Shown here: positions 10,505 to 31,945 of the stretch, one piece after another
Layout of the letters: each line of letters starts with the position of its first letter
Numbering within the stretch: the stretch's first letter is position 1
Source: Cohnella sp. AR92
GTDB lineage: Bacteria > Bacillota > Bacilli > Paenibacillales > Paenibacillaceae
NCBI RefSeq assembly: GCF_003990975.1
Contig: NZ_RZJR01000008.1
Location: 140-64,139 of the forward strand
Direction of reading: 5' to 3'
DNA: 64,000 nucleotides
Translations under genes and position numbers: made by a program
The notes under the pieces: generated by a model
Databases searched by the model: none
What the model was told of the DNA's origin: nothing
Seen by the model: only the letters and a program-made list of their open reading frames with translations

Positions 10505-11152
10505 TTAGGGGACGAGCAGACCGGCAACCGCGGCACGGGCTGTCTCTTCCTCCCCTGCGTTCGCGAGACGCCATCGCTCGGCTTTGTCTCCGGGCCGAAC
10601 GCGCACGACGAGCGCGTCTCCCGGTTCCAGGCGGATCAGCTTCGCGGTTGCATCTCCAGCGTCTTCGGTTGCGATTGTTATTGTGCCCTCTACGGCATAC
10701 ACGAGATAGAATCGGTTCTGAGTTGTGTTCTCGAGAGCGGCGATAATAAGAAGCTCATCCGTTTGTCCTGAAGGCAGCGCAAGAAGTCTCAGTTCGGCTC
10801 GATATCCGTCCGCATAGATCAGGTTAAAGTCCGTCGCCAGCCCTCGGCTTCTCGTCTCCCGCTCTCCTGCAAAATCGCAGTTGTCTCCCGGCCGAAGCCG
10901 GACGGAGCCTCTTCCCTCCAGTATGAGTTCAAGCTCGCCGTCCAGCAGCATTAATGTGCGGTTGTAGCCGGGCAGCGGAGTGAAGACTGACTCAGCCGTC
11001 TCGATTGTCGCCACGCTCGCCCTCCATTCGAAGGTCCGCTCGGCATATAGGGAGCCGGGCGGATAAATGGCCAGCTCCTCCGTCGTTCCTCCCGTCCAGC
11101 GGCTGGTCGTAAACGCCTCTCTCCGAACGATCTCTTTCACGAGCTTGCTCAT
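10505..11152 (-). CDS. hutD: HutD family protein
   Basis: The 215-residue double-cupin protein matches HutD: the family mark SRWTGGTTEELAIYPPG lies near residues 17-33 and PLPGYNRTLMLLDGE follows near 58-72. HutD proteins occur in histidine-utilisation loci; in Pseudomonas they are reported to limit hut expression, and a catalytic activity is not established. It is the last gene of the minus-strand hut/his block. Its ATG overlaps the stop of a 47-codon frame (ATGA), so its translation is probably coupled to that ORF. No clear terminator separates it from the convergent opuABC gene. Confidence 0.86.
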   Translation of the reverse strand: MSKLVKEIVRREAFTTSRWTGGTTEELAIYPPGSLYAERTFEWRASVATIETAESVFTPLPGYNRTLMLLDGELELILEGRGSVRLRPGDNCDFAGERETRSRGLATDFNLIYADGYRAELRLLALPSGQTDELLIIAALENTTQNRFYLVYAVEGTITIATEDAGDATAKLIRLEPGDALVVRVRPGDKAERWRLANAGEEETARAAVAGLLVP

Positions 11153-11292
11153 TCTTCTCCCCCCTTCTCATGCCAATACCGGGTAGTCGTCGCCTTCGCC
11201 TCAAAACCGTGCTTCGCATAGATCGCTCTCTCCACCGAATGGTCGGTCCATTCGTCGTCCAAAATCCAGACCAGCTTTTTCCCATTTAACAT
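11149..11292 (-). CDS. 47-residue ORF, possible remnant of a 2-hydroxyacid dehydrogenase N-terminus
   Basis: Read from the ATG at 11292, this frame has a good ribosome site (GGAGG, 9 nt upstream) and ends in an ATGA overlap with hutD. The peptide begins MLNGKKLVWILDDEW and continues SVERAIYAKHGFEAKATTT. That looks to me like the first strand-helix-strand of a CtBP-like D-2-hydroxyacid dehydrogenase cut off after about 45 residues. It may be a degraded gene kept because it provides translational coupling to hutD, or a genuine small protein. The family assignment is a judgement by eye. Confidence 0.55.
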   Translation of the reverse strand: MLNGKKLVWILDDEWTDHSVERAIYAKHGFEAKATTTRYWHEKGGEE

Positions 11293-11319
11293 GTTTGTCG
11301 AACCTCCTCAATTAGCCGA

Positions 11320-11919
11320 TTAGAGAACTCCCTTGGAAGACGGGATCTCTGTGCGTCCAGGCTCAACGGCAGACGCTTCGTTCAGCGCCCGGCCAAGCGC
11401 CTTGAACACCGCTTCGATCATGTGGTGCGTGTTCCGGCCGTAGTGGACGATCGCGTGCAGCGCCATCCGGCTCTCGAGCGCCAGCTTCCAGAGGAACTCG
11501 TGCACCAGCTCTGTCTGGAATCGCCCCGTCTCCTTGGAGGGGTACTCGGCGCGGTACTCCAGATGAGGCCGGTTGCTGAGGTCGACGACCACCTGCGCAA
11601 GCGCCTCGTCCAGCGGAACGAAGGCGTTGCCGTAGCGGCGGATGCCCCTCTTGTCGCCGAGCGCCTCGCGGATGCATTGACCCAGCACAATCGCGATGTC
11701 CTCCACCGTGTGGTGGTCGTCCACGTCCAAATCTCCTTGTGCCTGAACCTGCAGGTCGAAACGCCCGTGCACGGCGAACGCATGAAGCATGTGCTCCAGG
11801 AACGGCACGCCGGTGCTCAGCTCGCACTTGCCTTCTCCATCCAGATCGAGCGTCACGCTCACTTCGGTCTCTCCCGTTTTTCTTGATATTGTCGCGCTTC
11901 TCGTGCCGGTGTCGTTCAT
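11320..11919 (-). CDS. hisB: Imidazoleglycerol-phosphate dehydratase HisB
   Basis: HisB removes water from imidazoleglycerol phosphate to give imidazole acetol phosphate, step six of histidine synthesis (or two steps before histidinol). The 199-residue protein is the monofunctional dehydratase with the metal-binding motifs FLEHMLHAFAVHG, VDDHHTVEDIAI, ESRMALHAIVHYG and RNTHHMIEAVFKA. The start at 11919 has AGGAG 8 nt upstream; the frame continues 28 hydrophobic codons further up through a low-complexity region and is not believed there. A terminator lies between it and the upstream M20 gene, so it probably has its own promoter. It sits apart from any other his-operon genes in this window. Confidence 0.95.
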   Translation of the reverse strand: MNDTGTRSATISRKTGETEVSVTLDLDGEGKCELSTGVPFLEHMLHAFAVHGRFDLQVQAQGDLDVDDHHTVEDIAIVLGQCIREALGDKRGIRRYGNAFVPLDEALAQVVVDLSNRPHLEYRAEYPSKETGRFQTELVHEFLWKLALESRMALHAIVHYGRNTHHMIEAVFKALGRALNEASAVEPGRTEIPSSKGVL

Positions 11920-11950
11920 GGGCAGCTCTCCTTTGAGATGATGGGGATGC

Positions 11951-11986
11951 AAAATCAAAATCAAAATCAATATGAAAATCAAAACA
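11951..11986. repeat. AAAATC hexamer repeats upstream of hisB
   Basis: Three exact AAAATC units (11951-11968), one degenerate unit, one more exact unit and an A-rich tail lie about 30 nt above the hisB start, directly after the upstream terminator. Such a short repeat could vary in copy number and alter promoter spacing; this is only a possibility. Confidence 0.6.
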
Positions 11987-12045
11987 AAAAAAGAAAGCCT
12001 CAACGGACCCGCCGGTTCGCGGGTTGGTTCCGAATAAGCTTTCTT
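11984..12045 (-). terminator. Rho-independent terminator between the M20 deacylase gene and hisB
   Basis: AAGAAAGC at the left and GCTTTCTT at the right form the base of a stem with an inner CCCGC/GCGGG hairpin. On the minus strand it is followed by seven or more T. It would end the long transcript coming from the genes above 12196. I looked for T-box features ahead of hisB and found none. Confidence 0.8.
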
Positions 12046-12195
12046 CTAGAAAACGATAGGCTAAATGAGCTTCTAGGGTTTATTTGGTTTGCGAGATTTG
12101 GGGGACCTGCGCGGGCTGTATCCCTGTATGGGCTGTAACCCTTATTGGGTTGCAGCTTCCGGGATCTCACTCAGCGCGACTGGAATCGGGTTACG

Positions 12196-13395
12196 TCAGC
12201 CGTTAGAGGTCATGTAGCGGTACGCCCAGAGCGCGTACGCTCGCGAGGCCTCTACGACTTCCCGAATCGGAACGAATTCGTTCGGGGCGTGCGCGACATC
12301 CAGCGAGCCCGGTCCGAACAGTACGGACGGGATACCCGCCGACGCCAGCAGCTCGACCTCTGCGTAGCCGTTGAAGCCCGTGAACTGCGGCGGACGATGA
12401 TCATAGAGGTCTTCGAGCGCATTTGCCAGGCTCGTTACGATCGGCGCATCGTCGGCGACAGTCCAGTTGGCGAAGCGCTGGCGAAGCGTCAGCTCGACCT
12501 CGATTCCCGTCTCGCGGGAGAACGCATTCGTCAGCTCGCGGATCTCCCGCTCGGCTTCATCCATCGACTCGCCGGGGAGTACCTGCCGGTCGAATTCGAG
12601 CTCGCAACGGTCGGGCACTAGCGTGACTCCGACGCCGCCGGTAAGCTTGCCCGCGTTGACGGTCGGGTGCTTCAGCTCGGGCTCGTCCATGCGCTTGGCA
12701 AGCGAATCGTTGTACACGCGCAGCTTCTCCAAGTATCGCCCCATCTTATAGATGGCGTTGTCCCCGGCGAACGCGATGCCCGTATGGGCGCTTCTCCCGA
12801 ATGTGCGGGCGGAGAATTCGAGCGCACCCTTCAGCCGGTTGCCGATTCGCAGGCTTGTCGGCTCGGATACGCACGCCATCTCGCAATCGGCCAGCAGGCC
12901 GCTCTCGATAAGCGCCGTCGTACCCTTAAAGCCGACCTCCTCATCGACGACGGCCGTGAACAACAGACCTCGCTCAAAGTCGGCTCCGCAGCGATGCAGC
13001 GCTTGAACGGCGATTAGCATCGCCGCGACCCCAGCCTTCATGTCCGCCGAGCCAAGGCCGTATAAGTTGCCGTCTCGAAGATCGGCTCCCCACGGGTCGC
13101 TGCGCCAGAGCGCCTGATCGCCAGCCGGTACGGTGTCCATATGGCCGTTGAACAGCAGCTTCGCCTTCCGGCGGCCGGGCAGCTCGGCGATCACATTCGC
13201 GCGGCGCTCTTCGACCGGCTGCAGGCGTGTCGGAATGCCTGCAGCCTCCAGTTCCTCGGCGACGACGGCCGCGACCGCGCTTTCGTCGCCCGTCGGATTC
13301 TCGCTGTTCGCGCGGACAAGCCGTTGCAGCAGCCGTACAAGCTCGGCTTCGTCGATCGAGTCCAATAAGCGGCGTTCTTGCTCACAAGTCGTCAT
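12196..13395 (-). CDS. M20-family deacylase (ArgE/DapE type)
   Basis: The 399-residue cytosolic enzyme should hydrolyse an N-acyl amino acid or related amide with two zinc ions. Metal and catalytic blocks are FNGHMDTVPAGD (His, catalytic Asp), GLGSADMKAG (bridging Asp), FTAVVDEEVGFKGT (Glu pair), a Glu in CVSEPTS, and FGPGSLDVAHAPNEFV (His) at the end. The dimerisation domain is present between about residues 190 and 300. Its start overlaps the stop of the membrane-protein gene by 14 nt, which places it as the last gene of the catabolic module running from gldA. Whether it acts on acetylornithine or on a substrate of this module is unknown. Confidence 0.85.
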   Translation of the reverse strand: MTTCEQERRLLDSIDEAELVRLLQRLVRANSENPTGDESAVAAVVAEELEAAGIPTRLQPVEERRANVIAELPGRRKAKLLFNGHMDTVPAGDQALWRSDPWGADLRDGNLYGLGSADMKAGVAAMLIAVQALHRCGADFERGLLFTAVVDEEVGFKGTTALIESGLLADCEMACVSEPTSLRIGNRLKGALEFSARTFGRSAHTGIAFAGDNAIYKMGRYLEKLRVYNDSLAKRMDEPELKHPTVNAGKLTGGVGVTLVPDRCELEFDRQVLPGESMDEAEREIRELTNAFSRETGIEVELTLRQRFANWTVADDAPIVTSLANALEDLYDHRPPQFTGFNGYAEVELLASAGIPSVLFGPGSLDVAHAPNEFVPIREVVEASRAYALWAYRYMTSNG

Positions 13396-14965
13396 GCCTT
13401 TCCTCCTTGCCGCGATTCGGAAGTTTTGAATCTCTCTTTCTTCTATAAGCTATATTCGCTGCCAGAGCGATCAGAAAAGAGACCGCCAGCGACGCCAGCA
13501 TGGCCGCGAGGAAGCCGAGTGCGTCATTGCTGAACAGCAGTGCGAGATAGAATGGCACATAAGCGGTCGACCGGAGGTCCAGCCCGCCGATGACGGCCCC
13601 GGCAAAGCCTGACGCGAGGATCGCTCCGAGCGAGACCATTCGACTGCGCTGCATGAACACATACGAGGCTTCGATAAACGTTCCGAAGCCGACGTTCAGC
13701 CAGAACGGCTTGCTCGACGTGTTTCGATCGGCGGGATAGACCGGAAGCGCGAGCTGCGCCAGCAAAATGCCGGCTGACGTCATGACAAGCCCGGCCATGT
13801 CGAGGGCGCCGATGAAGCTGTTGCCGTAGCGCTCCATCTCAAGCAGCATCAGTGGCAGCAAGACGGTGTGGTACCAGCCTCTGCGTATAAGCGGCCACAT
13901 CGCCAGACCGAAACCGCAGCCGACGAGCTCGGAACTTAGCCCGACCGTCCATTCCAACGCATCTCGAACAGCGTCGGCCGCCCGCATGGTCCATTCGCCG
14001 AGACCGTAGAACATGACTAGTCCCGGCAATACGCCGGATAGGACGGCCGTCGCGATATGGACCGACGTAGCCGGGAAGCCTAGCCGGGCGCCAAGCTGGA
14101 ATACGCGCGGCGTCAGCCAGCCGGCGGCCAAACCGGCTAGCACAACGCCTACGACGCCTCCATCCGCGGAGAGAAATCCGGCGGCGATTCCCGCGATCAG
14201 CGTCGCCTCGCCAAGATCCGCCATCTGGCGGGCCGCGAAGACGGCGAGCACGATCAGCGGCAAATACGACAGCATGGCGGATGCCTTGTCCAATCCGGAC
14301 AGGAACGGGAGATTGGAGAGCGAGAACAGCAGCAGAACGGCCATGAACGCGGGAATCGACGACGTCATGACGCCGCTGATTCTCGCTTCGCGCCAGCTTT
14401 TCGAGCCGGCCATCCGGTACGACAGCTTCCAATAACGGCTGAGCGCAAGCGCGAACGCGACGGCTCGCGTCTGGTTGGTCGTGCCCGTCGTGCCGGACAG
14501 GGAGACGACGTTCGCGCCGAGCGATTTAACCTCTCCCATCGATGTTCCTCCGGTTCCGACGACCGGCAGCCCTCGCTTCGCCGCCGCCGCGACAGCCAGC
14601 CGATTCGCGCCGTGCGGATCGCAGCTCAGCAGGATCAGTCCATCGATCCTCCCTTCCTCGATCAACAGCGCGATCGCTTCATCCGAGCGGGCCGCCTCGC
14701 GGTTGATCTCCTCGAGGCTCCCTTCCGCTCCTCTTAAGAACGAGTGGGAGCTCTCGTTCCACTCATACAATTCAGCGGCGACGGAAGCCGCCCTCTGATC
14801 CATCGAGCCTTGCGCCGCCACGAACTGTGCCGCAGCCACCTCGATACCGGCCCCCCGGCACTCCGAAGCGATCTCGGCGAGCAGCCGCTTGGGATCGCCG
14901 CCTCCCGAATGGAAGAGGTTGCCGCCGCTGGAGCCGAGGATCGCCGCCCTTTTTGTCCCGATCAT
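13382..14965 (-). CDS. Two-domain membrane protein: glycine-rich cytosolic domain plus PTS-EIIC-like transmembrane part
   Basis: The 527-residue product starts at the ATG at 14965, which has GGAGGAGG upstream. Residues 1-185 form a soluble domain with AAILGSSGGNLFHSGGG, GLILLSCDPHGANR, GTGGTSMGEVKSLGAN and SLSGTTGTTNQTRAVA. These loops suggest binding of a phosphorylated or nucleotide ligand. Residues 205-510 contain about nine to ten hydrophobic helices. I believe it belongs to a poorly characterised family sometimes annotated as a PTS-like sugar permease; no PTS phosphorylation site is visible. Neighbouring kinase and dehydrogenases suggest that it imports or senses a polyol or sugar acid. 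Function remains open. Confidence 0.6.
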   Translation of the reverse strand: MIGTKRAAILGSSGGNLFHSGGGDPKRLLAEIASECRGAGIEVAAAQFVAAQGSMDQRAASVAAELYEWNESSHSFLRGAEGSLEEINREAARSDEAIALLIEEGRIDGLILLSCDPHGANRLAVAAAAKRGLPVVGTGGTSMGEVKSLGANVVSLSGTTGTTNQTRAVAFALALSRYWKLSYRMAGSKSWREARISGVMTSSIPAFMAVLLLFSLSNLPFLSGLDKASAMLSYLPLIVLAVFAARQMADLGEATLIAGIAAGFLSADGGVVGVVLAGLAAGWLTPRVFQLGARLGFPATSVHIATAVLSGVLPGLVMFYGLGEWTMRAADAVRDALEWTVGLSSELVGCGFGLAMWPLIRRGWYHTVLLPLMLLEMERYGNSFIGALDMAGLVMTSAGILLAQLALPVYPADRNTSSKPFWLNVGFGTFIEASYVFMQRSRMVSLGAILASGFAGAVIGGLDLRSTAYVPFYLALLFSNDALGFLAAMLASLAVSFLIALAANIAYRRKRDSKLPNRGKEERHDDL

Positions 14966-14993
14966 GCTTCCTCCTCCTGTTCGCGAGTTCTCT

Positions 14994-16106
14994 TCAAGCC
15001 TGCGCCGCCGACTGGAACCACAGGCCGCGAAGCTTCTCCAGCCGCTCGAGAGCCGAATCATTCGCATTGATCCATACTCGCTTGTCCGACCCGTTCAGCA
15101 GGCGGTCCATCCCTTCCCGCCAGAGAATTGGAGATCGTTTGTAGAAGGCTTCCGTATCGAAGGCGATATGGCTCGTCAATGTCACGTTAGCCAGCGCAAG
15201 CAGCGGGTTGTCCGCGCCGAGCGGCTCGCGATCGAACACATCGAGCGCCGCCCCCGCGAGACGGCCTTCCTTCAACGCGGCGGCAAGCGCGTCCATATCG
15301 ATCAACCCCGCTCGCGCCGTGTTGATCAGATACGCGTCCGGTTTCATCAGAGCAAGCTCGGCCGCGCCAATAAGCTGAGGCTGACCCGCCGAATGTCGGG
15401 AATGAAGCGTCAAGATATCGCTCTCGGCGAGCAGCGTCTCCAAGTCCGTTTTCTCAGCTCCGCCGCGAATGACGGCCTCCTCGGAGACAAACGGATCATA
15501 CGCGATGACTCGGCAGCCAAAGCCGCTCAGCTTCCGCGCGACGAGACGTCCGATCTCGCCGAAGCCGGCGATGCCGACCGTCAGCTCGCGCAGCTCCGGA
15601 ATGCGGCCGGTGTTCGGGAACTCCTTCGGCCACTCCCCGGCCCGGATGCCCGCATGGCAGCGGGCGATGTTGCGCGTCTCCGCCAGCATCAGGCCGACCG
15701 CGAAGTCGGACACCGCTTCGGACGTGCGACCGAGCGTGTGCATCACCGGAATGCCGATCTCTCGCGCCGCGGCGGCGTCGACGTTCTCGTAGCCGCCTCT
15801 AAGCACGCCTACCGCGAGCAGTTGAGGAAGGCGCGCGAGCAAGTCGGCCCTGACGGGGCAGTTATGGACAACGAGCAGGTCCGCGTCCTGAAGCAGCGCC
15901 TCCAGACCGTCCGGAATCGGCAGCGCGTCCGGCCCCTCTCTCTCGATGAGAAGCAGCTCCTCGTCAAGCTCATGCAACGTCGGCGGTCCGTAAAAATAAG
16001 GCGTCACTTCCCATCCCCCGCGAACGAACGATAGGAAGCTGTCCGCCAGCACTTCGGGTGCGAGCAGCGCGTCTCCAGCCACGACCATTTTCGGTTTTGT
16101 TTTCAT
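14994..16106 (-). CDS. D-isomer-specific 2-hydroxyacid dehydrogenase
   Basis: The 370-residue NAD(P)-dependent enzyme should interconvert a 2-hydroxy acid and a 2-oxo acid. The Rossmann motif GIAGFGEIG is followed by the YDPF strand end; NTARAGLIDMDALAAALKEGRLAGAALDVFDREPL, here split at NTARAGLID and GAALDVFDREPL, carries the family catalytic Arg region, and HIAFDTEAF holds the general-base His. A few extra N-terminal residues precede the first strand (MVVAGDALLAP). It lies 27 nt after the FGGY kinase and 28 nt before the membrane-protein gene, in one operon. The substrate is probably an intermediate of the same pathway. Confidence 0.88.
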   Translation of the reverse strand: MKTKPKMVVAGDALLAPEVLADSFLSFVRGGWEVTPYFYGPPTLHELDEELLLIEREGPDALPIPDGLEALLQDADLLVVHNCPVRADLLARLPQLLAVGVLRGGYENVDAAAAREIGIPVMHTLGRTSEAVSDFAVGLMLAETRNIARCHAGIRAGEWPKEFPNTGRIPELRELTVGIAGFGEIGRLVARKLSGFGCRVIAYDPFVSEEAVIRGGAEKTDLETLLAESDILTLHSRHSAGQPQLIGAAELALMKPDAYLINTARAGLIDMDALAAALKEGRLAGAALDVFDREPLGADNPLLALANVTLTSHIAFDTEAFYKRSPILWREGMDRLLNGSDKRVWINANDSALERLEKLRGLWFQSAAQA

Positions 16107-16133
16107 CTCGATTCCCTGCCTCTCCTGGCAACG

Positions 16134-17675
16134 TTATGTCGATCGCCTGACGGAGGCTTCCGCATCCGTCCATGCGCGGTATCGGGCGTACATTCGGTCG
16201 TACACATCGCGGAATTCCGACCTAGGCTTAACAATCTGCGCTTCCGACGTCCAAGAGCGTACCCCTTCCTCCGGACTGGAAAAGCGTCCAAGCGCGCTCG
16301 CCGCAAGCATCGCCGCGCCGAGCGGCGTCGCTTCCTGCGCCTCCGAGAGCGTCAGCGGACGCTGGACGATGTCGGCGAGCGCTTGCCGCCACACCTCCGA
16401 CGAGGCTGGGCCTCCGGAGAAAATCAGCTTCTCGAAAGCGATGCCTAACTCCGCGAACGTCTCAAGAATGGTACGGACGCCGTACCCGGTGCTCTCCATG
16501 ACTGCCCGCGCGAGATGGCCGGCCCCATGTCCGAGGCCTAGACCGGCGAACAGCCCCCTCGCTTCGGGGTCCCATCGTGGCGTTCCCGTTCCGCTAAGCC
16601 CTGGGAGGAACGTGAGTCCGTCCGCTCCCGGCGGCGTCGCCTGCGCAAGATCGCCAAGTTGAGCGAAGGACAACGGCGCTCCGCCCTCCGATAGGAGATC
16701 TCGGAGCCAGCTTAGCGCGCCTCCGGTCAAATAATGCGTGCCCATCATTAGCCAAGAGTTCGTTGCCGCGCCGATGTTCGTCATCATGCGGTTGTCCGTG
16801 ATCGGCGAAGCTAGCGGCGTCATAAAGAACGTGCCGGTACCGAGGTTGATCACAGCCTCGCCCGGACGGACGGCCCCCATGCCGAGCAGCGCGCAGGGCT
16901 GATCCGACGCGGCAGCAATGACGGGAAGTCCTTCCGGCAAGCCGCTCATCTGCGCCGCTTCCGCCGTGACGGTACCGATCAAGGTTCCGGGAGGCACAAT
17001 CTCGGGGAACAGCGCAGGATCGATGTCGAGATAGAGGAGCAACTCCAAAGCAGGCTCTCGGCAACGGATGTCCAAGTGGAAAAAGCAAGCGCTCGTCTCG
17101 TCGGAGACGAAACGGCCGCTTAGCTTATCTAGCAGGAAGGCGTCGACCGAAGCGACCTGACGAATACGAGAGAATGCGAGCGGATCGCGTTCGCGGAACC
17201 AGAGCAGCTTCGCAAGTCCCCAGCTGTCCGAAGGAGGAATACCTGTCATGCTCGTTATCCAGCCTGTGCCGAGCCCTTCCTTCTCGCAACGAAGGCTTAG
17301 CGCTTCGATAGATTCCGTGCAACGGGTATCCATCCACAGATATGCCGGAGCCGCAGGTTTCCCCGCTTCATCCAAGAAGACGCAAGAGATTTGCTGGCTT
17401 GTTACCGTTACGCCTCTCAGCGTATCGGCATTCGTCCGCTCCATCAGCTCTCGCGAAGTCTGGCACACCCCCTCCCACCACAGCCGGGAGTCAACCTCCG
17501 CCGCTCCCGGCTCCGGAACGTCAGCCGTGATGTCGACCTTGGCGCTCGCGAGGATGGTTCCGTCGCTCAAATCATATAGAAAGCTCTTCACCGCGCTCGT
17601 GCTGGCGTCTACGACAATGAGGTGTCCGTCAACGAGATGACCTTCCTCAGTGAACACTTTCTCTCCCCCGCGCAT
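16134..17675 (-). CDS. FGGY-family carbohydrate kinase
   Basis: This 513-residue ATP-dependent kinase should phosphorylate a sugar, sugar acid or glycerol-like polyol. The first phosphate-binding loop reads VVDASTSAVKSFLYD, the second domain starts near GEAVINLGTGTFFM, and GGALSWLRDLL and SGGPASSEVWRQALADI are typical of the FGGY C-terminal ATPase domain. The start ATG overlaps the stop of the gldA-like gene (TGATG), giving tight coupling; the open frame begins with a weakly conserved 17-residue extension, and a GTG at 17657 is an alternative. The substrate cannot be predicted from motifs alone. A link to imidazole polyols is discussed under findings. Confidence 0.87.
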   Translation of the reverse strand: MRGGEKVFTEEGHLVDGHLIVVDASTSAVKSFLYDLSDGTILASAKVDITADVPEPGAAEVDSRLWWEGVCQTSRELMERTNADTLRGVTVTSQQISCVFLDEAGKPAAPAYLWMDTRCTESIEALSLRCEKEGLGTGWITSMTGIPPSDSWGLAKLLWFRERDPLAFSRIRQVASVDAFLLDKLSGRFVSDETSACFFHLDIRCREPALELLLYLDIDPALFPEIVPPGTLIGTVTAEAAQMSGLPEGLPVIAAASDQPCALLGMGAVRPGEAVINLGTGTFFMTPLASPITDNRMMTNIGAATNSWLMMGTHYLTGGALSWLRDLLSEGGAPLSFAQLGDLAQATPPGADGLTFLPGLSGTGTPRWDPEARGLFAGLGLGHGAGHLARAVMESTGYGVRTILETFAELGIAFEKLIFSGGPASSEVWRQALADIVQRPLTLSEAQEATPLGAAMLAASALGRFSSPEEGVRSWTSEAQIVKPRSEFRDVYDRMYARYRAWTDAEASVRRST

Positions 17676-18802
17676 CAGCCGAACAGCTCCTTGGCGATCC
17701 GGTCCGTCTCCTCGAACGCATCAGCAATCTCGCTTGCCGTGAGCGCACGGCCGAGCTCATGAATCGACTCTCCCGGGTCGAGCGTCCTCCGACCGGCGAC
17801 GAGCAGCTTGACGCGCAGCTCGGAAGGATCGCCGATAAGTCCGGTCTCGGCCAGCGATGCCGGAAGCCCGATCCGGCGGCAGAACCGCAGGTGCTTGGCG
17901 GCTTCAAACGGATTGCCGAGCAAAGTCGCCTGTACGGCCGTGCAGAAGCCGACCTTCTCGCCGTGCAGCAGATGGTGGCAATCGGGCAGCTCCGTCAGCC
18001 CGTCGTGCAAGGAGTGCGCGGCGGCGAGCCCGCCGCTCTCGAAGCCGATGCCGCTCAGCAGCGTATTGGCTTCGACGACCCGCTCGAACGCCTCCGAGCG
18101 GATTCCTCTTGCGGCATCGTCGTAGGCCTGCGCGCCGTCCTCGTCGAGGATACGTCCGCACAGCTCCGCGACGGCCGTTCCGAGGCGCGTCGGACTCGCG
18201 CCGAGAATCGTGCGCCCGCCGGCGCGCAAGTTGGCGAGAGCCTCCGGAGCCGTGGCGAGGGCGTCGCCCATTCCGGCGGCCAGATAACGCAGCGGCGCCT
18301 GCAGGATCAGCTCCGTGTCGACGAGCACGAGATCGGGGTTGCGCGGATGCGTCTCGAACTTCGCGACGCGCCCCTCCTCGTCGTAGATGACCGACAGCGC
18401 CGAGCAGGGCGCGTCGCTGGAAGCGATCGTCGGCACGATGACGATCGGCAGGCACAGCCGAAATGCGACCGACTTCGCCGCGTCCAGCAGCTTGCCGCCG
18501 CCGATGCCGACGACGACGTCCGCGCGGCTGATCTCGGCCTCGCGCTTCAGTCGCTCGATCTCCGCTTCCGAACATTCGCCGCCGAACTCGGCGAGCTTAG
18601 ACCGCAGGCCGTCCGCTCGCCATTTTTCCACAATGCCGCCCAGCCTCTTCCAGCCTCCGGACGTTGCGATGACAAGCGCCTCCGCTGCCTCTCCGAATCC
18701 GGAGACGGCGTGCGGAAGCTCGCGGATCGTTCCCGGTCCCTGCCTATACTGCATCGGCATGATAATCGCCGTATGACTTCTATTCGCTAATGGATCGGCC
18801 AT
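17675..18802 (-). CDS. Glycerol-dehydrogenase-like (GldA family) iron/zinc alcohol dehydrogenase
   Basis: The 375-residue protein matches GldA-type group III alcohol dehydrogenases, which oxidise glycerol or related diols with NAD. GIGGGKLLDAAK (about 99-110) binds the cofactor phosphate, VPTIASSDAPCSALSVIY (123-140) is a GldA hallmark, and the metal ligands are Asp180 in GMGDALAT, His263 in AAAHSLHDG and His280 in HHLLHGEKVGF. It follows hisC by 35 nt with no visible terminator and heads the gldA-kinase-dehydrogenase-membrane protein-deacylase run. The substrate may be larger than glycerol. Confidence 0.88.
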   Translation of the reverse strand: MADPLANRSHTAIIMPMQYRQGPGTIRELPHAVSGFGEAAEALVIATSGGWKRLGGIVEKWRADGLRSKLAEFGGECSEAEIERLKREAEISRADVVVGIGGGKLLDAAKSVAFRLCLPIVIVPTIASSDAPCSALSVIYDEEGRVAKFETHPRNPDLVLVDTELILQAPLRYLAAGMGDALATAPEALANLRAGGRTILGASPTRLGTAVAELCGRILDEDGAQAYDDAARGIRSEAFERVVEANTLLSGIGFESGGLAAAHSLHDGLTELPDCHHLLHGEKVGFCTAVQATLLGNPFEAAKHLRFCRRIGLPASLAETGLIGDPSELRVKLLVAGRRTLDPGESIHELGRALTASEIADAFEETDRIAKELFG

Positions 18803-23914: not shown

Positions 23915-23933
23915 GCCGATCTCTCCCTTCCGA

Positions 23934-25598
23934 TCAGCCGAGCATCGGCATGCGAATGCCTTTGCTCTTCGCCGTCTCGACGGCAAGCTCATAACCGGCG
24001 TCGGCATGGCGGACAACGCCCATGCCCGGGTCGGTCGTCAGCACGCGCTCCAGCCGTTCCTCGGCATCCTTCGAGCCGTCTGCCACGACGACCATGCCCG
24101 CATGCAGCGAATACCCCATGCCGACTCCGCCGCCGTGATGAACCGACACCCAGCTTGCGCCGGACGCCGTGTTGAGCAGCGCGTTCAGAATCGGCCAGTC
24201 CGCGATCGCGTCGCTGCCGTCCTTCATCGCTTCGGTCTCCCTGTTCGGGGACGCGACGGATCCGGCATCGAGATGATCTCGACCGATGACGATCGGCGCG
24301 GACAACTCACCGGAAGCGACCATGTCGTTCAGTATCTTGCCGAACTTAGCCCGCTCGCCGTAGCCGAGCCAGCATATTCGCGACGGCAGCCCTTGGAACG
24401 CGATTTTCTCCTGCGCCATCTTGATCCAGCGGTGCAGCCCTTCGTTGTCCGGGAACGCCTTGAGCGCCGCTTCGTCCGTCTTGAGGATGTCCTTTGGATC
24501 GCCTGATAAGGCGGCCCAGCGGAACGGCCCCTTCCCTTCGCAGAACTGCGGCCGGATGTAAGCGGGAACGAAGCCCGGGAACGAGAACGCCTCCTTAACG
24601 CCTTCGTCGAACGCGACCTGGCGGATATTGTTGCCGTAGTCGAAGGCGATTGCGCCGCGCGCCTTGAATTCGAGCATCGCCTCGACATGGCGAGCCATGC
24701 TCGCCTTCGCCAGCTTTACGTAAGCATCGGGATCGATCTCGCGTTTCGCCTTGCCTTCCTCCAGCGTCATTCCCGCCGGCAAGTATCCGTTAAGCGGGTC
24801 GTGAGCCGATGTCTGATCGGTGATGATGTCCGGCAGGAAGCCGAGCTCCAGCATGCGAGGCAGCACCTCGGCCGCGTTGCCGAGCAGTCCGATGGACAGC
24901 GGCCTTCCCTCCTCCTTAGCTTCCAGCGCAAGGGAGATCGCATCGACCATACTCTCGACGAGCATGTCGCAATAGCGGGAGTGGATGCGCTTCTCGATGC
25001 GGCTTCGGTCGACTTCGATGCCGATGACGACGCCCTCGTTCATCGTGACGGCGAGCGGCTGCGCGCCGCCCATGCCGCCAAGTCCGGCCGTCACGGTGAT
25101 CGTTCCCTTCAGACTGCCGCCGAAGTGCTGGCGGCCGAGCTCGGCGAACGTCTCGTACGTGCCTTGGACGATGCCTTGGCTGCCGATGTAAATCCAGCTT
25201 CCAGCCGTCATCTGTCCGTACATGATGAGTCCTCTCTTATCGAGCTCGTGGAACTTCTCCCAAGTCGCCCAAGCGGGAACGAGATTGGAGTTGGCGAGCA
25301 AGACACGCGGAGCGTTCTTATGCGTGCGGAAAACGGCGACCGGCTTGCCGGACTGAACAAGCAGCGTCTCGTTCTCCTCCAGCTGTTGCAGGGAGGCGAC
25401 GATCGCGTCGAAGCTCTCCCAGTTGCGCGCGGCGCGGCCGATGCCGCCGTAAACGACCAGCTTCTCCGGATGCTCGGCGACCTCGGGGTCCAGGTTGTTC
25501 ATGAGCATGCGAAGCGCAGCCTCTTGAACCCAGCCCTTCGTATTCAATTCCGTCCCCCGCGGCGCGCGGATCACTCGGTCTTCTGCGTATAAACTCAT
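23934..25598 (-). CDS. hutU: Urocanate hydratase HutU
   Basis: HutU adds water to urocanate using tightly bound NAD, giving imidazolonepropionate. The 554-residue length matches the family. Highly conserved stretches include [72 protein letters not shown] and the near C-terminal [17 protein letters not shown] with [17 protein letters not shown] lies 8 nt before the ATG. It sits between hutH and hutI in one transcript. Confidence 0.97.
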
Positions 25599-25665: not shown

Positions 25666-27204
25666 TTAGAATTTTAGCAGCTCGAACAGGTCGTCGAGCG
25701 AGTCGGTCGCCTTCATCCATTCCGCGATGACGCGGAAGTCGCCGGACAAAGCGCGGTCGCGGTCCACGAACGGGACGCGCTCCCGCACGGAGCGGTACAG
25801 CCAGCCCGTTCCTTCGCCCAACAGCGCGGGGTTGCGGAAGTCGGCCGCTTGCGCTCCGCACAGCAGCTCGATGGCGAGCACGTGGTACGCGTTGTCGACG
25901 ATCTGCCTCGCTTTCCGAGCGCCGATCGTCCCCATGCTCACGTGATCCTCCTGATTGCCGGAGGATGGAATCGAATCGACGCTTGCGGGATGCGCAAGCG
26001 ATTTGTTCTCCGAGACGACCGCGGCGGCCGCGTATTGTGCGATCATGAAGCCGGACTCCACTCCGCCGTTCTCCGTCAGGAAAGGAGGCAGTTGCTCGTT
26101 CAGATGCGGATTCACCAGACGCTCCAAGCGCCGCTCGGCGATGTTCGCGAGCTCCGCCGCGCCGATCGCCAGGTGATCCATAGCCAGCGCGATCGGCTGG
26201 CCGTGGAAGTTCCCGCCCGAGATGACGCGGTCCTCGTCCGCGAAGATGAGCGGATTGTCGGTCGCGGAGTTGATCTCGATCTCCAGCTTCTCTTCGACAT
26301 AGGCGACGGCGTCTCGGCTCGCGCCGTGCACCTGAGGCGCACAGCGCAGCGAATAAGCATCCTGCACGCGGCGCTCCCCTTGGGCGGTCATCAGCTTGCT
26401 GCCCGCCGTAAGCTTGCGGATCCGCGCGGCGGATTGCCGCTGTCCTCGATGCGGACGAATCGCATGCGTCGCGTCGTCGAATGCGTCGCGCACGCCGTAC
26501 AGAGCTTCGGCTGTCAGCGCGGCGGCATTGTCCGCCCAGTCTGAGAGACGCTTCGCGTCCCAGCAGGCAAGCACTCCGACAGCCGTCATCACCTGCGTGC
26601 CGTTGATGAGCGCCAGCCCTTCCTTCGCCTCCAGCGCAATCGGCGTGAGGCCGGCCCGAGCCATCGCCTCTCCTCCAGGGAGACGCTCTCCCTGATAGAA
26701 AGCTTCGCCTTCCCCTAGCAGCACAAGCGCCAGATGCGAGAGCGGAGCCAGATCGCCGCTTGCGCCAAGCGAGCCTTGCTCGGGCACGACGGGCGTCACG
26801 CCGCGATTCAGCATCTCGGTCATGAGCAGCACGACCTCCGGACGGATGCCGGAATAGCCGAGCGCAAGCGCATTGATGCGAAGCAGAAGGATCGCTCGCA
26901 CCGTCTCCTCAGGGAACGGTCGCCCGATGCCGCAAGCATGGCTGCGAATCAGATTAAGCTGAAGCGCCCGCGCGTCCTCCGCCGATATATAAGTGTCGCT
27001 GAATTTGCCGAAGCCGGTCGTCAATCCGTAGACGACCTTGCGTTCGCGCAGCAGCTTTTCAACATAATCTCTAGTGCGCTTCATCGCTTCCATGCTGCCG
27101 TCGTCGATCGTCACCTTGCGGCGATGCCGCGCGACGCGCACCACGTCCTCCAGCGTCAGGGAACGTCCGTCAATCGTTACTTTAATCTCGGCCGTTGTAA
27201 GCAT
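25666..27204 (-). CDS. hutH: Histidine ammonia-lyase HutH
   Basis: HutH removes ammonia from L-histidine to form urocanate, the entry step of the pathway. The 512-residue protein has the MIO-forming Ala-Ser-Gly at about residues 148-150 in GSLGASGDLAPLSH, with VYGLTTGFGKF, LINGTQVMTA, NSATDNPLIF and SIPSSGNQEDHVSMG also present. The ATG at 27204 has AGGTGA upstream; the frame above it runs into a terminator hairpin and is not used. The 200-bp gap to hisD contains that hairpin preceded by UAG triplets, which suggests HutP-controlled antitermination. Confidence 0.97.
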   Translation of the reverse strand: MLTTAEIKVTIDGRSLTLEDVVRVARHRRKVTIDDGSMEAMKRTRDYVEKLLRERKVVYGLTTGFGKFSDTYISAEDARALQLNLIRSHACGIGRPFPEETVRAILLLRINALALGYSGIRPEVVLLMTEMLNRGVTPVVPEQGSLGASGDLAPLSHLALVLLGEGEAFYQGERLPGGEAMARAGLTPIALEAKEGLALINGTQVMTAVGVLACWDAKRLSDWADNAAALTAEALYGVRDAFDDATHAIRPHRGQRQSAARIRKLTAGSKLMTAQGERRVQDAYSLRCAPQVHGASRDAVAYVEEKLEIEINSATDNPLIFADEDRVISGGNFHGQPIALAMDHLAIGAAELANIAERRLERLVNPHLNEQLPPFLTENGGVESGFMIAQYAAAAVVSENKSLAHPASVDSIPSSGNQEDHVSMGTIGARKARQIVDNAYHVLAIELLCGAQAADFRNPALLGEGTGWLYRSVRERVPFVDRDRALSGDFRVIAEWMKATDSLDDLFELLKF

Positions 27205-27229
27205 AACGTCACCTGCTTTACGAATAATG

Positions 27230-27281
27230 AAAAAAGCCCATACCAAATCGGGGGTACCGGCTTCTAAATCACTAATCGCTA
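27230..27281 (-). promoter_or_regulatory. Candidate HutP antitermination site upstream of hutH
   Basis: On the minus strand three UAG triplets start at 27281, 27274 and 27266 (spacers of 4 and 5 nt), followed directly by AAG and a hairpin whose stem pairs AAGCC-TACC with GGTA-GGCTT around a short internal loop, then six T ending at 27230. This is a terminator between hisD and hutH. Known HutP sites in Bacillus consist of NAG triplets separated by 4 nt next to such a terminator, and hutP is present in this cluster. The 5-nt spacer is a deviation from the ideal pattern. Confidence 0.6.
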
Positions 27282-27404
27282 TATGGCCGATGGCTGACTG
27301 AACAATTCGGTTGCTAAAGAACGAATGAAGAGTGCTGCACCTGCTGCTAAAACGTCTACTGACTTCTACTGAAATCCTACTCGAATTCTGCTGCTATCAT
27401 TACA

Positions 27405-28694
27405 TCAATCCGCTATGCCGCCGCTCTCATCTAGACGGAGCTCCACCGAACGAGCGTGGGCTTGAAGCCCTTCAAACCTCGCAAGCGCGGAGATCTTCCA
27501 GCCGTTCTCTAGCATATCTTGACGGCTGTAGCGGACGACACTCGTCTTCTTGACGAAGTCGTCGACCGATAAGCCTGAAGAGAAACGCGCGGTGCGGCCC
27601 GTCGGCAGCACATGGTTCGTTCCGACGAAGTAGTCGCCGATCGCAACCGGGCTGTCGTCTCCGATGAAGATCGCCCCGGCATGCTTGATCTTGCCTAGAT
27701 GGGCGAACGGGTCGCGGGTCTGAATCTCCAGATGCTCTGTCGCCAGCTCGTTGACGATGGCGATCGCTTCGTCCAGATCGGCAGCCACGCAGATCGCGCC
27801 GGTACGTTCGACCGCTTGTGCCGCGATGGTCTTGCGATCCAGCGTCTCGAGCTGCCGGACGGCTTGCTCTTGAACCTCCTTGGCCAGCGCAGCGGACGTC
27901 GTGACGAGCGTTACCGAGGCGAGCGGATCGTGCTCCGCTTGGGCGAGCAAATCGGCCGCAATATACGCGGCATTCGCCGTCTCGTCGGCAAGAATGACGA
28001 CCTCGCTCGGGCCGGCGATCATGTCGATGCCGACCTGGCCGAACACCTCTCGCTTCGCCGTCGCGACGTAGGCGTTGCCCGGTCCGGTGATTTTGTCCAC
28101 CTTGCGGATCGTCTCCGTCCCGTATGCCAGCGCGGCGATTGCCTGAGCCCCCCCGACCTTGTATATCTCGGCGATGCCCAGCTCGCTCGCGGCGACGAGT
28201 ACAGCCGGATTGAGATGCCCGTCCATGCCAGGCGGCGTCGTCATGGCGATCTCCTTCACCCCGGCGACAAGCGCCGGAATCGCATTCATCATGACGGAGG
28301 TCGGATAGGCCGCCGTTCCTCCCGGCACGTACAGGCCGACCCTCTCAAGCGGAATGACCAATTGGCCCAAAATCGTGCCGGACTCCGTCGTTCTCATCCA
28401 CGATTGGAGCAGCTGCCGCTCGTGATAATCGCGGATGTTGGCGATCGCCTCCCGGATCGCAACCAACACCTCCGGGTCGATCCGCCGGTACGCTTCCGCG
28501 ATCTCCTCATCTTGAACGGCATGCTTCGTCAGCGCGACGCGGTCGAACTTCTCCGTCATTCGAAGAAGAGCGGCGTCGCCGTCCCTGCGGACTTCTTCTA
28601 TAATGTGCAGCACGGCCTCGCGGCGTTCCTGCGCGCCCGTCGCCGCCTCCGTCTGGGCGACATTCAGCTCGTGCCTCTCCACGATTCGCAGCAT
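27405..28694 (-). CDS. hisD: Histidinol dehydrogenase HisD
   Basis: HisD oxidises L-histidinol to L-histidine in two NAD-dependent steps. The 429-residue protein has [50 protein letters not shown], the zinc ligands around AEHDPLAS and the catalytic Glu-His in [13 protein letters not shown]. The start at 28694 follows AGGTGA by 9 nt; an open frame further upstream in another gene's shadow is disregarded. It lies 53 nt after the ABC ATPase and before hutH, in the middle of a histidine catabolic cluster, so a role in using external histidinol is worth considering alongside biosynthesis. Confidence 0.95.
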
Positions 28695-28747
28695 GTAGAA
28701 CTCACCTCTCCCTAAGCCATCCAATTCCGTTGAACCTTCATATATTC

Positions 28748-29575
28748 TCAGCCGTTCGCGGCCAGCTTCTTCAGCGCCTTCTGCCGCTCCAGCTCGGAGA
28801 CGATCTCCCGCTTGTAATGAACGAAATCGTCGGTGAGCATGTCGTTCCAATCCCGCGATTTGTTCATTTGAATCGAGATTTCCTTCGCGACGCGACCGGG
28901 ATGCGCGCTCATGACATAGACCCGGTCGGACAGGTAGATCGCCTCGTCGACGTCGTGCGTGACGAACAGGACGCCGCACTTCTCCTCTTCCCAGATTCGA
29001 AGCAGCAGATCCTGCATATCCCGCCGTGTCTGCGCGTCCAGCGCTCCGAACGGCTCGTCCATGAGCAGCAGCTTAGGCCGATACACGAGCGCTCTTGCGA
29101 TCGCGACCCGCTGCTGCATGCCGCCTGACATCTGCGCCGGATAGTGCCGTTCGAATCCCTTGAGGCCGACCAATTCGAGAAAATGATAGGCCGTTTTTTT
29201 TTTCTGCGCGCTGCTTAGACCTTTCGTCTTCTTCAAGGCGAACGCGACGTTCTCCCAAGCGTGCATCCATGGCAGCAGACTGTATTGCTGGAAAACGACG
29301 CCGCGGTCTCTACCCGCTCCGACGATCGGAGCTCCATTCAACTCAAGCGATCCGCTTGTCATGGAATCGAGACCGGCCACCAGCCGCAGGAAGGTTGACT
29401 TGCCGCAGCCGGAAGGGCCGAGCAGCGAGATAAACTCACCTTGATTAATGTAGAGGTGAACGCGGTCGAGCGCCGTGATCTCCTTCTTGTTGCTCATGAA
29501 CGTCTTCGTGACGTTATTCGCGAGCAGCATAATTCCCCTTGCTTCCGTTTGCTCCTCCGCCCATTGCATCGCCAT
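28748..29575 (-). CDS. ABC importer ATPase (NitT/TauT type)
   Basis: The 275-residue ATPase powers import together with the permease upstream. It has Walker [10 protein letters not shown], the signature [15 protein letters not shown], Walker [14 protein letters not shown] and the switch His in [16 protein letters not shown]. This arrangement matches the TauB/SsuB/ThiZ group. The ATG at 29575 follows GGGGTGA, which also contains the permease stop. Its place between hutP and hisD suggests that the imported compound is histidine, urocanate, histidinol or another imidazole; substrate is inferred from context only. Confidence 0.9.
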
Positions 29576-29582
29576 CACCGTC

Positions 29583-30353
29583 TCACCCCTTCGCTTTCTC
29601 CAACGTTTTCCACGGGAACATCTTGCGGTACAGCAGCCCGAACAATTGGTCGGTAATGAGCCCGAACAGGCCGATGACCAGAATGCCGAGCACGATCCGG
29701 TCGGTCGCCAGGTACCGCTGCGCCTGCATGATCCGGAAGCCAAGGCCGTCGGAAGCGGCAACGAGCTCGGCGACGACGAGATAGGTCCAAGCCCAGCCCC
29801 ACGTCGTCCGGAACGTATCCATCATGCCCGGCAGCGCCGCGCGGAACACGATGTTGCGGGTCGTTTCGCCTTTGCTGAAGCCGAGCGTGTGGCCGACTTC
29901 CAGCAGCGACTTGTTGACCGTCTTGCAGTTGTCCGCGATCATAATCACTTCTTGGAAAAACACGCCGAGGAACAAAATAAAGAACTTCTGCATATCGGAA
30001 GTGCCGAACCACAAAATCGACAGCGGAATGAAGGCGGCGGCCGGCATGTAGCGAATCAGCGCGACGATCGGCTCGCAGATCGCCTGCCAGGAACGCGACG
30101 TCGCCATCATCATGCCGATCGGCACCGCGAAGATCGTGGAGATAACGAAGCCCATCAGAATTCGGTAGAAGCTGACGCCGACGTCGCGGAAGAAGATGCC
30201 TTCCCCGATCTCTTCGCCCAGCGCGTTAAGCGTGCCGCCAGGGGTCGGCAGGAACAGCGGATCGATCATGTTCGAATAGGTGACGATCGACCAGACCGCG
30301 ACAACGACAAGGATGCTGACCAATGATATTAGCGTATATTTTCGCAAGTGCAT
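29583..30353 (-). CDS. ABC importer permease (NitT/TauT type)
   Basis: This 256-residue inner-membrane protein has about six hydrophobic helices and the cytoplasmic EAA-type loop SLLEVGHTLGFSKGETTRNIVFRAALPG that contacts the ATPase, here cited in part as SLLEVGHTLGFSKGE. It resembles SsuC/TauC/ThiX. The ATG at 30353 lies just after the hutP stop with AGGTGG between; an earlier in-frame start at 30401 would overlap hutP. It forms an importer with the ATPase downstream and the lipoprotein at 30923-31945. Confidence 0.9.
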   Translation of the reverse strand: MHLRKYTLISLVSILVVVAVWSIVTYSNMIDPLFLPTPGGTLNALGEEIGEGIFFRDVGVSFYRILMGFVISTIFAVPIGMMMATSRSWQAICEPIVALIRYMPAAAFIPLSILWFGTSDMQKFFILFLGVFFQEVIMIADNCKTVNKSLLEVGHTLGFSKGETTRNIVFRAALPGMMDTFRTTWGWAWTYLVVAELVAASDGLGFRIMQAQRYLATDRIVLGILVIGLFGLITDQLFGLLYRKMFPWKTLEKAKG

Positions 30354-30360
30354 CGCCCAC

Positions 30361-30825
30361 CTAAATATGATTAAAACCAAAGCCGATGGTTTCGTGTTCA
30401 AAGCCTTTTTTGGGTGCTCCTATCGTTCCGTAAATCGCGACCGCGATCCAATCCCCCTCGTGCTCCACGGGGCCGCCGGAGAACTTGCCTCTGACGATGG
30501 AGAACGTAAGGCCGACCGTCCGGAGAATGTTGCCGAACTGCACCTCGCCCCGGCCCACGCCTTGCAGAGCCTCGATGATGGCGTGATACACCGCGTGCAC
30601 TTCCCGGTACGATTCGCTGTCGATAATGCGATTGTTCTTCGCCGCCGTCTCGATCGCGGCAATGACCTTCATCATGTCCATGGCTCCCACCCGGCCGATC
30701 GTGAACCGATAGCCTTCGGCGATGAGCCCCCGCTCGACCGTTCTGCGCCATTCGTGATCCTGCAGCACGGCGAGCAGAATCGCCAGCTTGCCGACGGGAA
30801 ACTTAGAGACCGATTCGCTGTCCAT
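30361..30825 (-). CDS. hutP: Hut operon antiterminator HutP
   Basis: HutP is a hexameric RNA-binding protein that, with L-histidine and Mg2+, binds NAG triplets in hut mRNA and prevents terminator formation. The 154-residue product matches Bacillus HutP closely: GRVGAMDMMKVIAAIETA, the metal histidines 77 and 81 in REVHAVYHAIIEAL, LRTVGLTFSIVRG, GDWIAVAIYGTIGAP, and His144 in EHETIGFGFNHI at the end. In Bacillus hutP is the first gene of the hut operon; here it is inside an ABC importer operon, between the binding protein and the permease. Two matching RNA sites occur in the window. Confidence 0.95.
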   Translation of the reverse strand: MDSESVSKFPVGKLAILLAVLQDHEWRRTVERGLIAEGYRFTIGRVGAMDMMKVIAAIETAAKNNRIIDSESYREVHAVYHAIIEALQGVGRGEVQFGNILRTVGLTFSIVRGKFSGGPVEHEGDWIAVAIYGTIGAPKKGFEHETIGFGFNHI

Positions 30826-30922
30826 CCTTCCGCTCCCCTCTCTTCCGGCGGTTCCGCCCCCCCTCTCGGAGGAAGGCGAAACGCTGCCTGCTCTTCTCTT
30901 ATGCCTTCTCTTATAAATACGA

Positions 30923-31945
30923 TTATTTCAGCTGGAACATTTGCTCCAGATCGACTTGCTTGTCCAGCACCTTCTGCTCGGTGAGAATCGTCTGAATGCT
31001 GCCCGCCGTCTTCAGGAAGTCGCCAGAATCGGCAAGCGCCGTCTGATCGGCCGACGTGAAGTAGTCGAGTCCTTCGAGGATGACCGGCAGATCGGCTGCG
31101 TCGAGGCCGCTCTTCTCGGCGACGATCTTGTCGCCCGTCTTCTGGTTGCTGTTCCAGTAAGCGAGAGTCTCGTCCCATACCTGCTTGAGCTTGTCCTTCA
31201 CTTCCGGATGCTCGGCGAGGTAGTCTGCCTTGATTACCGCGACGTCGCTGATTAGACCCGGAGCGTTCTCGCCGGAGTAGATCAGTTGCACATCGCCCTT
31301 CGACTTGACGGTGGAGATGTATGGCTCATACGTGACAGCCGCGTCCACTTTGCCGGAGAGAAGAGCGAGACCGGCGTCGGAAGCCGGCATGTAGACGACT
31401 TTGACATCGTCGATCGTCATGCCGTTGTCGCTGAGCGCTTCGCGCAGCAGAAGGTCGGACGTCGTGCCTTCTTCGAAGGCGACCTTCTTGCCCTTTAGGT
31501 CGGCGACGCTCTTGACGCTGCCCGTTGCGAGAACCGCGTCGGCTGTACGGGATTGGTCGAGCAGCACGATGCCGTTCAGGTTCAGATCGTTGTTGCCGAC
31601 CATCTTGATTGCCGTGTGCGCCGCGATGTTCGCGACCTTGATGTTGTCCGAAGCGAATGCGGCGTTGATGTCCGAATCCTGATTGAAGTTGACGACCGTG
31701 ACGTCCAGACCGTATTTCTCGAAAATTCCCTCTTCGGCGGCGATCCACCACGGAGCGTAGCCGACCCACGGCTCGACCCCCATCTTGAAGCTGAGAACCT
31801 CTTCGGAAGAGGCCTCGCTCGCGGAAGCGCTGGCGCTCGGACTTGCCGCCGAGTCCCCGTTGTTGCTGCCGTTGCTGCCGCAAGCGGACAGCAGAGCCAT
31901 CGCCATCACCGTAACTGCCGTCGTCAACCATTTTTTCTTTTGCAC
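30923..31945 (-). CDS. ABC importer substrate-binding lipoprotein (NitT/TauT/ThiY family)
   Basis: The product of about 340 residues has a lipoprotein signal with lipobox LLSAC, then a Ser/Ala/Asn-rich linker and a periplasmic-binding-type-2 domain beginning SFKMGVEPWVGYAPWW. Segments such as GIFEKYGLDVTVVNF and KKVAFEEGTTSDLLL are typical of the SsuA/TauA/ThiY group. A GTG at 31945 with GGAG about 8 nt upstream is the best start; a second GTG lies three codons earlier. It is the first gene of the importer-hutP-hut transcript and follows a leader with promoter, NAG triplets and terminator. Specificity is probably for an imidazole compound. Confidence 0.88.
   Translation of the reverse strand: MQKKKWLTTAVTVMAMALLSACGSNGSNNGDSAASPSASASASEASSEEVLSFKMGVEPWVGYAPWWIAAEEGIFEKYGLDVTVVNFNQDSDINAAFASDNIKVANIAAHTAIKMVGNNDLNLNGIVLLDQSRTADAVLATGSVKSVADLKGKKVAFEEGTTSDLLLREALSDNGMTIDDVKVVYMPASDAGLALLSGKVDAAVTYEPYISTVKSKGDVQLIYSGENAPGLISDVAVIKADYLAEHPEVKDKLKQVWDETLAYWNSNQKTGDKIVAEKSGLDAADLPVILEGLDYFTSADQTALADSGDFLKTAGSIQTILTEQKVLDKQVDLEQMFQLK

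Follow-up and report, generated by a model that had tools for sequence, protein, structure and literature searches.

Genes for the synthesis and for the degradation of one amino acid are normally separate and oppositely regulated. In the Bacillus-type hut operon, the genes for HutH, HutU and HutI are controlled by HutP, and a terminator with triplet repeats precedes hutH; the HutP protein of Bacillus subtilis binds such triplets when histidine is present, and the TAG or NAG triplets are needed for this. Histidinol can also be used, as in Arthrobacter histidinolovorans, where it is oxidised to histidine, which is then degraded. The window analysed here, a stretch of 64,000 nucleotides from Cohnella sp. 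AR92 (contig NZ_RZJR01000008.1, positions 140 to 64,139 of the forward strand), carries a minus-strand run of about 21 kb (10505-31954) that encodes HisB, HisC and HisD together with HutP, HutH, HutU, HutI and HutD, an ATP-binding cassette (ABC) importer, a GldA-like dehydrogenase and an FGGY-family kinase. A preliminary description of this DNA had placed all of these genes in one strand run, and profile matches confirm every one of them, with the kinase, the dehydrogenase and the importer likewise on the minus strand. The titles and abstract openings listed by a literature search, some of them only part of longer result lists, mention neither a cluster of this kind nor the catabolism of imidazoleglycerol. 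In Oscillibacter, a HisR paralogue is located with hutH and a histidine permease (PMC9413887), and the passages found of that article describe no his genes within hut.

Our best reading of the cluster, which we hold with evenly balanced confidence, is that of a catabolic funnel built on a hut operon, leading from imidazole precursors to histidine and on to glutamate. External imidazole compounds would enter the cell through the ABC importer, and perhaps also through a permease resembling the IIC proteins of the phosphotransferase system (PTS). Dedicated late histidine-biosynthesis enzymes, termed HisB2, HisC2 and HisD2 here, would convert them to L-histidine, which HutH, HutU, HutI, a HutF-like deiminase and an M20-family hydrolase would then carry to glutamate. 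The lowest entry would be histidinol via HisD2, which is encoded with the importer upstream of a HutP-type terminator and could thus supply histidine, the inducer. At the top, the entry would most likely be imidazoleglycerol, phosphorylated by the FGGY kinase, dehydrated by HisB2 and transaminated by HisC2. A histidinol phosphatase would then give histidinol, namely the HisJ of the cluster in related genomes and, in this strain, probably a HisJ encoded on contig 8. The preliminary description had proposed that imidazole polyols or histidinol may be converted to histidine and then degraded to glutamate. The outline of this proposal gains strong comparative support from the second his copies, the hisJ of relatives, partial clusters of HisD and importer, and the HutP-type element. 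Gene content, order, conservation, the second copies and the presence of the element can be read from the sequences; the substrates, the direction of flux, the action of HutP on the element and the reaction of the kinase are what we infer.

The run opens with the importer genes, which are interleaved with hutP (28748-31954). They encode an SsuA/NMT1-like substrate-binding lipoprotein (30923..31954; NCBIfam TIGR01728, 140 bits, below the cut-off of 163.5) and, after HutP (30361..30825; NF002838, 209.5 bits, cut-off 155), a TauC/SsuC-like permease (29583..30401, with a start that may be 30353; below the equivalog cut-offs) and an NtrCD/TauB-like ATPase (28748..29578; below the cut-offs). HisD2, a histidinol dehydrogenase paralogue (27405..28694; TIGR00069, 554 bits, cut-off 244), is followed by histidine ammonia-lyase HutH (25666..27204; TIGR01225, 721 bits), urocanate hydratase HutU (23934..25598; TIGR01228, 998 bits) and imidazolonepropionase HutI (22631..23914; TIGR01224, 497 bits), each above its curated cut-off. 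Next come the M20 amidohydrolase (21297..22634), the HutF-like amidohydrolase (19960..21282), histidinol-phosphate aminotransferase HisC2 (18838..19938; TIGR01141, 335 bits, cut-off 277), a GldA-like iron-type polyol dehydrogenase (17675..18802; NF006941, the glycerol-dehydrogenase subfamily, 378 bits, cut-off 336), the FGGY kinase (16134..17675) and a D-2-hydroxyacid dehydrogenase (14994..16106; PF02826/PF00389). The run ends with a membrane protein (13382..14965), an ArgE/DapE-type M20 deacylase (12196..13395; TIGR01910, 259 bits, cut-off 218), imidazoleglycerol-phosphate dehydratase HisB2 (11320..11919; NCBIfam HisB model NF002115, 316 bits, cut-off 289) and the cupin-like HutD (10505..11152; PF05962, 98.8 bits, cut-off 25). 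From hutH to the deacylase gene the intergenic gaps are at most 67 bases, with some overlaps, if the hydroxyacid dehydrogenase starts at 16106; this start matches the relatives, and an alternative at 16007 has a ribosome-site-like sequence. The gaps before HisB2 and HutD are 276 and 167 bases, respectively.

The cluster thus shares HutP, HutH, HutU, HutI and a triplet-repeat terminator before hutH with the Bacillus-type operon, but the HutF-like deiminase and the M20 hydrolase replace HutG, and his genes, a kinase, dehydrogenases and an importer are inserted. With lower histidine biosynthesis (HisB-HisC-HisJ-HisD) it has enzyme families, and probably reactions, in common, whereas the copies here are paralogues linked to degradation genes. 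The upper-pathway genes are missing, as the HisZ, G, H, A, F and IE proteins of the host genome gave no match at E<=1e-5 in the window or in the corresponding regions of four relatives. Compared with histidinol use in A. histidinolovorans, the Cohnella cluster has HutP-type control, an importer and putative entry points above histidinol.

The hut-linked hisB2, hisC2 and hisD2 are additional copies. A second his operon, for which the preliminary description had proposed to look, is present on contig 26 of the host genome (G000; 6.02 Mb, 99.98% complete) in the order hisZ-G-D-B-H-A-F-IE, the upper-pathway names having been assigned by eye from open reading frames. Besides weaker aminotransferase matches, the genome also encodes three other HisC-like proteins (41-43% identity). 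The possibility that the cluster holds the only hisB, hisC and hisD of the genome is thereby ruled out, and because a separate his operon exists, the linked copies should be dispensable for prototrophy. Phylogenetic trees were built for HisB and HisD. In the HisB tree (37 proteins), the five cluster HisB2 proteins form one group (99/100, a bootstrap value that is not settled) apart from 24 housekeeping HisB proteins; in the HisD tree (19 proteins), a 100/100 branch splits ten housekeeping from seven hut-linked proteins, the internal order of the latter being unsettled. These separate, supported groups rule out that HisB2 and HisD2 are recent duplicates of the housekeeping genes. Both proteins retain the invariant residues of their families in comparisons that include the housekeeping copy.

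The arrangement is conserved. A search of 295 genomes of the family, with at most five candidates scored per genome, found the kinase at E<=1e-100 in five: the host, C. thermotolerans DSM 17683 (G109), C. xylanilytica DSM 25239 (G196), G250, and G088 from another genus. Gene order, a survey of which the preliminary description had suggested, is near-identical in all four relatives and hence in two genera, so that chance does not explain it. HisB2 is kept in all five clusters. A second hydroxyacid dehydrogenase gene follows hisB2 in G109, G196 and G250 and is absent from the window and G088; HutD has no match in G250 and a partial match only in G088. Two irregularities were seen in the relatives: the C. 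thermotolerans deacylase gene gives matches at its two ends only (L020 4036-4311), and in G250 the HutF-like protein and the kinase are both matched in two separate pieces (L025 16961-18276, L026 725-2232), which may reflect sequencing errors or decay.

HutU is found at E<=1e-150 in 77 of the 295 genomes. We read 25 hut regions, a non-random set made up of the five kinase clusters, the 18 regions ranking next by HutU match, another hut region from G088, and G041, which is distant. HisD2 occurs in seven, and the same seven have HutP and all three importer components at >=55% identity. In the remaining 18, HisD2 is absent and transporters are matched only distantly, the trio of G245 reaching 33-51%. 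A census of HisD in ten genomes found a histidinol dehydrogenase beside hut genes in seven, all of which also have a housekeeping HisD, and a single HisD in G105, G129 and G245; G250 has four HisD-family matches. Several regions hold parts of the cluster. G046 has HisD2 and the importer, while the kinase, HisB2 and HisC2 are absent from the 40 kb that were read, and G225 has HisD2, the importer and the deacylase, without HisC2, HisB2 or kinase. In G245 (genome 78% complete), HisC2 adjoins the D-2-hydroxyacid dehydrogenase on a contig without HisD2, HisB2 or kinase. A HisC (62% identical to HisC2) and HisJ follow hutI in G105, and HisJ is present in G129; these could be the housekeeping genes of the two genomes. 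The series fits a hut operon that gained its entry points one after another, although losses would look alike.

Directly before hutH, a TAG-N4-TAG-N5-TAG sequence is followed by a GC stem and a T-run, as in an intrinsic terminator (element 27281-27230, terminator part 27253-27230, minus strand), so that the cluster combines a HutP protein with the triplet repeats and terminator expected of a HutP-regulated operon. The ordered TAG motif with its stem, a pattern written after the sequence had been viewed, occurs once in the window and in none of 100 shuffles, and TAG counts alone in eight gaps are not clearly above shuffles (28 to 315 of 500 shuffles as high). All three TAG triplets are invariant in nine genomes aligned at the element, and a looser-spaced form exists in three further regions (G261, G278, G290). 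Among 23 hut regions, G248 and G041 having been left out, triplets allowing looser spacing stand before hutH in 11 of 13 with hutP and in one of the ten examined without it (G207). A general terminator scan of 10300-30000 gave nine sites against 15.6 in shuffles, the terminator before hutH not among them, which argues neither way; scans with Rfam models at gathering scores and for tRNAs gave no matches. If HutP acts on this element as it does in B. subtilis, HisD2 and the importer, encoded upstream of the terminator, can be made without inducer, and HisC2, the kinase, the GldA-like enzyme and perhaps HisB2, encoded downstream, need histidine. Histidinol oxidised by HisD2 would then open the operon. 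To judge from this arrangement, histidine probably induces the his genes of the cluster instead of repressing them, which would be opposite to the control of a biosynthetic operon.

A histidinol-phosphate phosphatase gene, which the preliminary description had reported as missing, is indeed lacking here, since HisJ was not found in positions 10001-33000 of the window and the membrane protein and deacylase genes overlap by 14 bases. In all four kinase-bearing relatives, hisJ lies between these two genes (243-255 bits, cut-off 133), and HisB-HisC-HisJ-HisD would there cover every step from imidazoleglycerol phosphate to histidine. Elsewhere in the host genome, contig 8 encodes a HisJ and contig 29 gives a weak PHP match. 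The contig 8 protein shares 60% identity with the cluster HisJ from C. xylanilytica, against 72-80% for the three other cluster copies; from these values it is probably an older paralogue rather than a relocated cluster hisJ.

The top of the proposed route depends on the FGGY kinase (PF00370/PF02782), which lies below the cut-offs of all 12 NCBIfam models listed and appears to form its own subfamily. Its best match is the XylB model (300 of 380 bits), and the GlpK model gives 204 of 590 bits. In glycerol kinase, an Arg-Glu pair binds glycerol, and in XylB a Met-His motif binds the substrate. The alignment places Q-Q-I at the Q-R-E of glycerol kinase and S-Q-Q-I at the G-Q-M-H of XylB, so both score and motif place the protein outside glycerol kinases and xylulokinases alike; the earlier assignment to the glycerol type is not supported. 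To our knowledge, HisB has one substrate only, imidazoleglycerol phosphate. Since the cluster encodes an enzyme specific for this ester and no upper pathway, three sources of the ester are left, namely a kinase, the surroundings of the cell and the separate his operon. Sharing the operon, the FGGY kinase is the obvious candidate, and it is plausible that it makes imidazoleglycerol phosphate. That the cluster is a dedicated pathway by which bacteria grow on free imidazoleglycerol, or on a similar imidazole polyol, in which a new FGGY kinase regenerates the intermediate imidazoleglycerol phosphate and a duplicated lower pathway feeds hut under histidine-triggered antitermination, is a proposal to which we give somewhat less than even weight. 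We would guess that the GldA-like and hydroxyacid dehydrogenases serve imidazole diols and imidazolelactate, and that the deacylase serves N-acylated histidine. If the proposal is true, half a biosynthetic pathway feeding degradation would be a new catabolic strategy with a new kinase activity, and imidazole polyols would be a nutrient somewhere in nature. The cluster yields a substrate prediction that is directly testable in culture-collection strains.

Several observations weigh against the preferred funnel. We do not know free imidazoleglycerol to be abundant in nature, and there is no known substrate for the kinase, the GldA-like enzyme, the hydroxyacid dehydrogenase, the deacylase or either transporter. 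The window's cluster does not hold the complete HisB-HisC-HisJ-HisD cassette, HisB2 could have its own promoter in the 276 bases that separate it from its neighbour, and G129 and G105 have hutP without the triplet element. The importer may carry something else, given a locus in G414 (L096) that has importer relatives (53-63% identity), an M20/HutF pair and a IIC-like protein, whereas his genes and hutHUI are absent from the 20 kb that were read. This set, which lies at 9054-18540 of L096 in another family of the class and also includes an RpiR-type regulator and an aconitase-X-like gene (some names assigned by eye), is a related but different pathway.

A narrower funnel, which we consider unlikely though it fares best among the alternatives, would take in histidinol through HisD2 and imidazolelactate or imidazole-acetol compounds through the hydroxyacid dehydrogenase or the GldA-like enzyme, the kinase acting on a ketone, and HisC2; HisB2 would be a side branch and imidazoleglycerol no natural input. 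The partial clusters speak for it, with HisD2 and importer but without HisC2, HisB2 and kinase in G046 and G225, and with HisC2 and the hydroxyacid dehydrogenase but without hisB, hisD and kinase in G245, as does the kinase's best match to XylB, since XylB-like FGGY kinases act on ketoses. It leaves HisB2 to be explained, which is present in every kinase cluster with its invariant residues and belongs to a family with one substrate known to us.

The preferred funnel also has to be weighed against a composite of two modules, hut with a histidinol pathway on the one hand and, merely sharing the operon, an unrelated sugar or polyol module on the other (GldA, FGGY kinase, hydroxyacid dehydrogenase, PTS-IIC-like protein and deacylase). 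The best PDB matches of the kinase and the GldA-like protein are ordinary carbohydrate enzymes, and the IIC-like protein, whose family was detected in 20 of the 398 class genomes searched, is without hut genes within 19-20 kb in 18 of the 19 other regions read. Cluster-like neighbours in these 19 regions are limited to the L096 set, in L092 an FGGY kinase that is 29% identical, and in L080 an ordinary hisB and hisD, together with distant ABC ATPases in several. However, the order hisC2-GldA-kinase-dehydrogenase-IIC-hisJ-deacylase-hisB2 interleaves the two sets and is kept across two genera, and a search of 397 other class genomes, with three candidates scored in each, found no relative of the kinase at E<=1e-95, which makes a composite improbable in our view. 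A plasmid search with the kinase gave no match at E<=1e-60, and the neighbours of three distant GldA relatives showed nothing informative. That extra hisB, hisC and hisD merely boost lower-pathway flux for prototrophy or under stress and sit in a hut cluster by accident is very improbable, for although the enzymes resemble ordinary HisB, HisC and HisD, a his operon exists elsewhere, the arrangement is conserved, and a HutP-type terminator, which histidine would open, precedes HisC2 and perhaps HisB2.

The lower end of the pathway, from formimidoylglutamate to glutamate, differs from that of Bacillus. The HutF-like protein (PF01979) gives 260 bits with a formimidoylglutamate deiminase model whose cut-off is 362, and the M20 protein 362 bits with the hydantoinase/carbamoylase family (cut-off 204). 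The two occur together in 18 of the 25 hut regions and HutG in four, with both in none; two regions lack the pair as well as HutG, and G041 shows no more than an M20 match of 39%. The HutG query, taken from G129, itself scores 226.7 bits against a cut-off of 229. Because the pair and HutG are mutually exclusive, the pattern supports roles as formimidoylglutamate deiminase and N-formylglutamate hydrolase, the HutF models being matched below their cut-offs. There is some likeness to ergothioneine catabolism, in that the M20 protein comes near the ErtE model (428 bits, cut-off 520) and both pathways use a HutU-family enzyme, but HutU here is an ordinary urocanate hydratase (998 bits versus 694 for thiourocanate hydratase).

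The membrane protein at 13382..14965 has no Pfam or NCBIfam match. Its AlphaFold model (pLDDT 86.5) finds PTS IIC proteins as the best matches in Foldseek (best E 2e-7, to a modelled entry; 12-13% identity), with a TM-score of 0.58 by target and 0.44 by query for the glucose IICB 8qsr. An N-terminal Rossmann-like domain, read from the secondary structure of the model, appears to be fused to the IIC-like domain, making the protein a candidate permease. A IIC-like carrier next to a kinase would suit a polyol.

By a count from the match list, a second HisB is present in 19 of the 295 genomes of the family. Apart from the host, four of these have the cluster HisB2, and 12 (G151, G105, G182, G046, G113, G279, G092, G271, G067, G252, G135 and G192) have a different HisB that is 46-47% identical to HisB2; of the remaining two, G033 yielded a single match and G173 only a fragment. 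An extra HisB is hence ruled out as a constant marker of this cluster. Of the different proteins (loci L174-L181), eight were placed in the tree and are very alike, that of G046 less so. Ten regions read around them contain no other his or cluster gene except for distant ABC ATPase matches, with open reading frames inspected in five, and the gene is an orphan hisB that is possibly mobile. In the window itself, a ProV/choline-type ABC ATPase and a fused permease/binding protein on the plus strand (7551-10479) converge on hutD and are perhaps a second uptake system.

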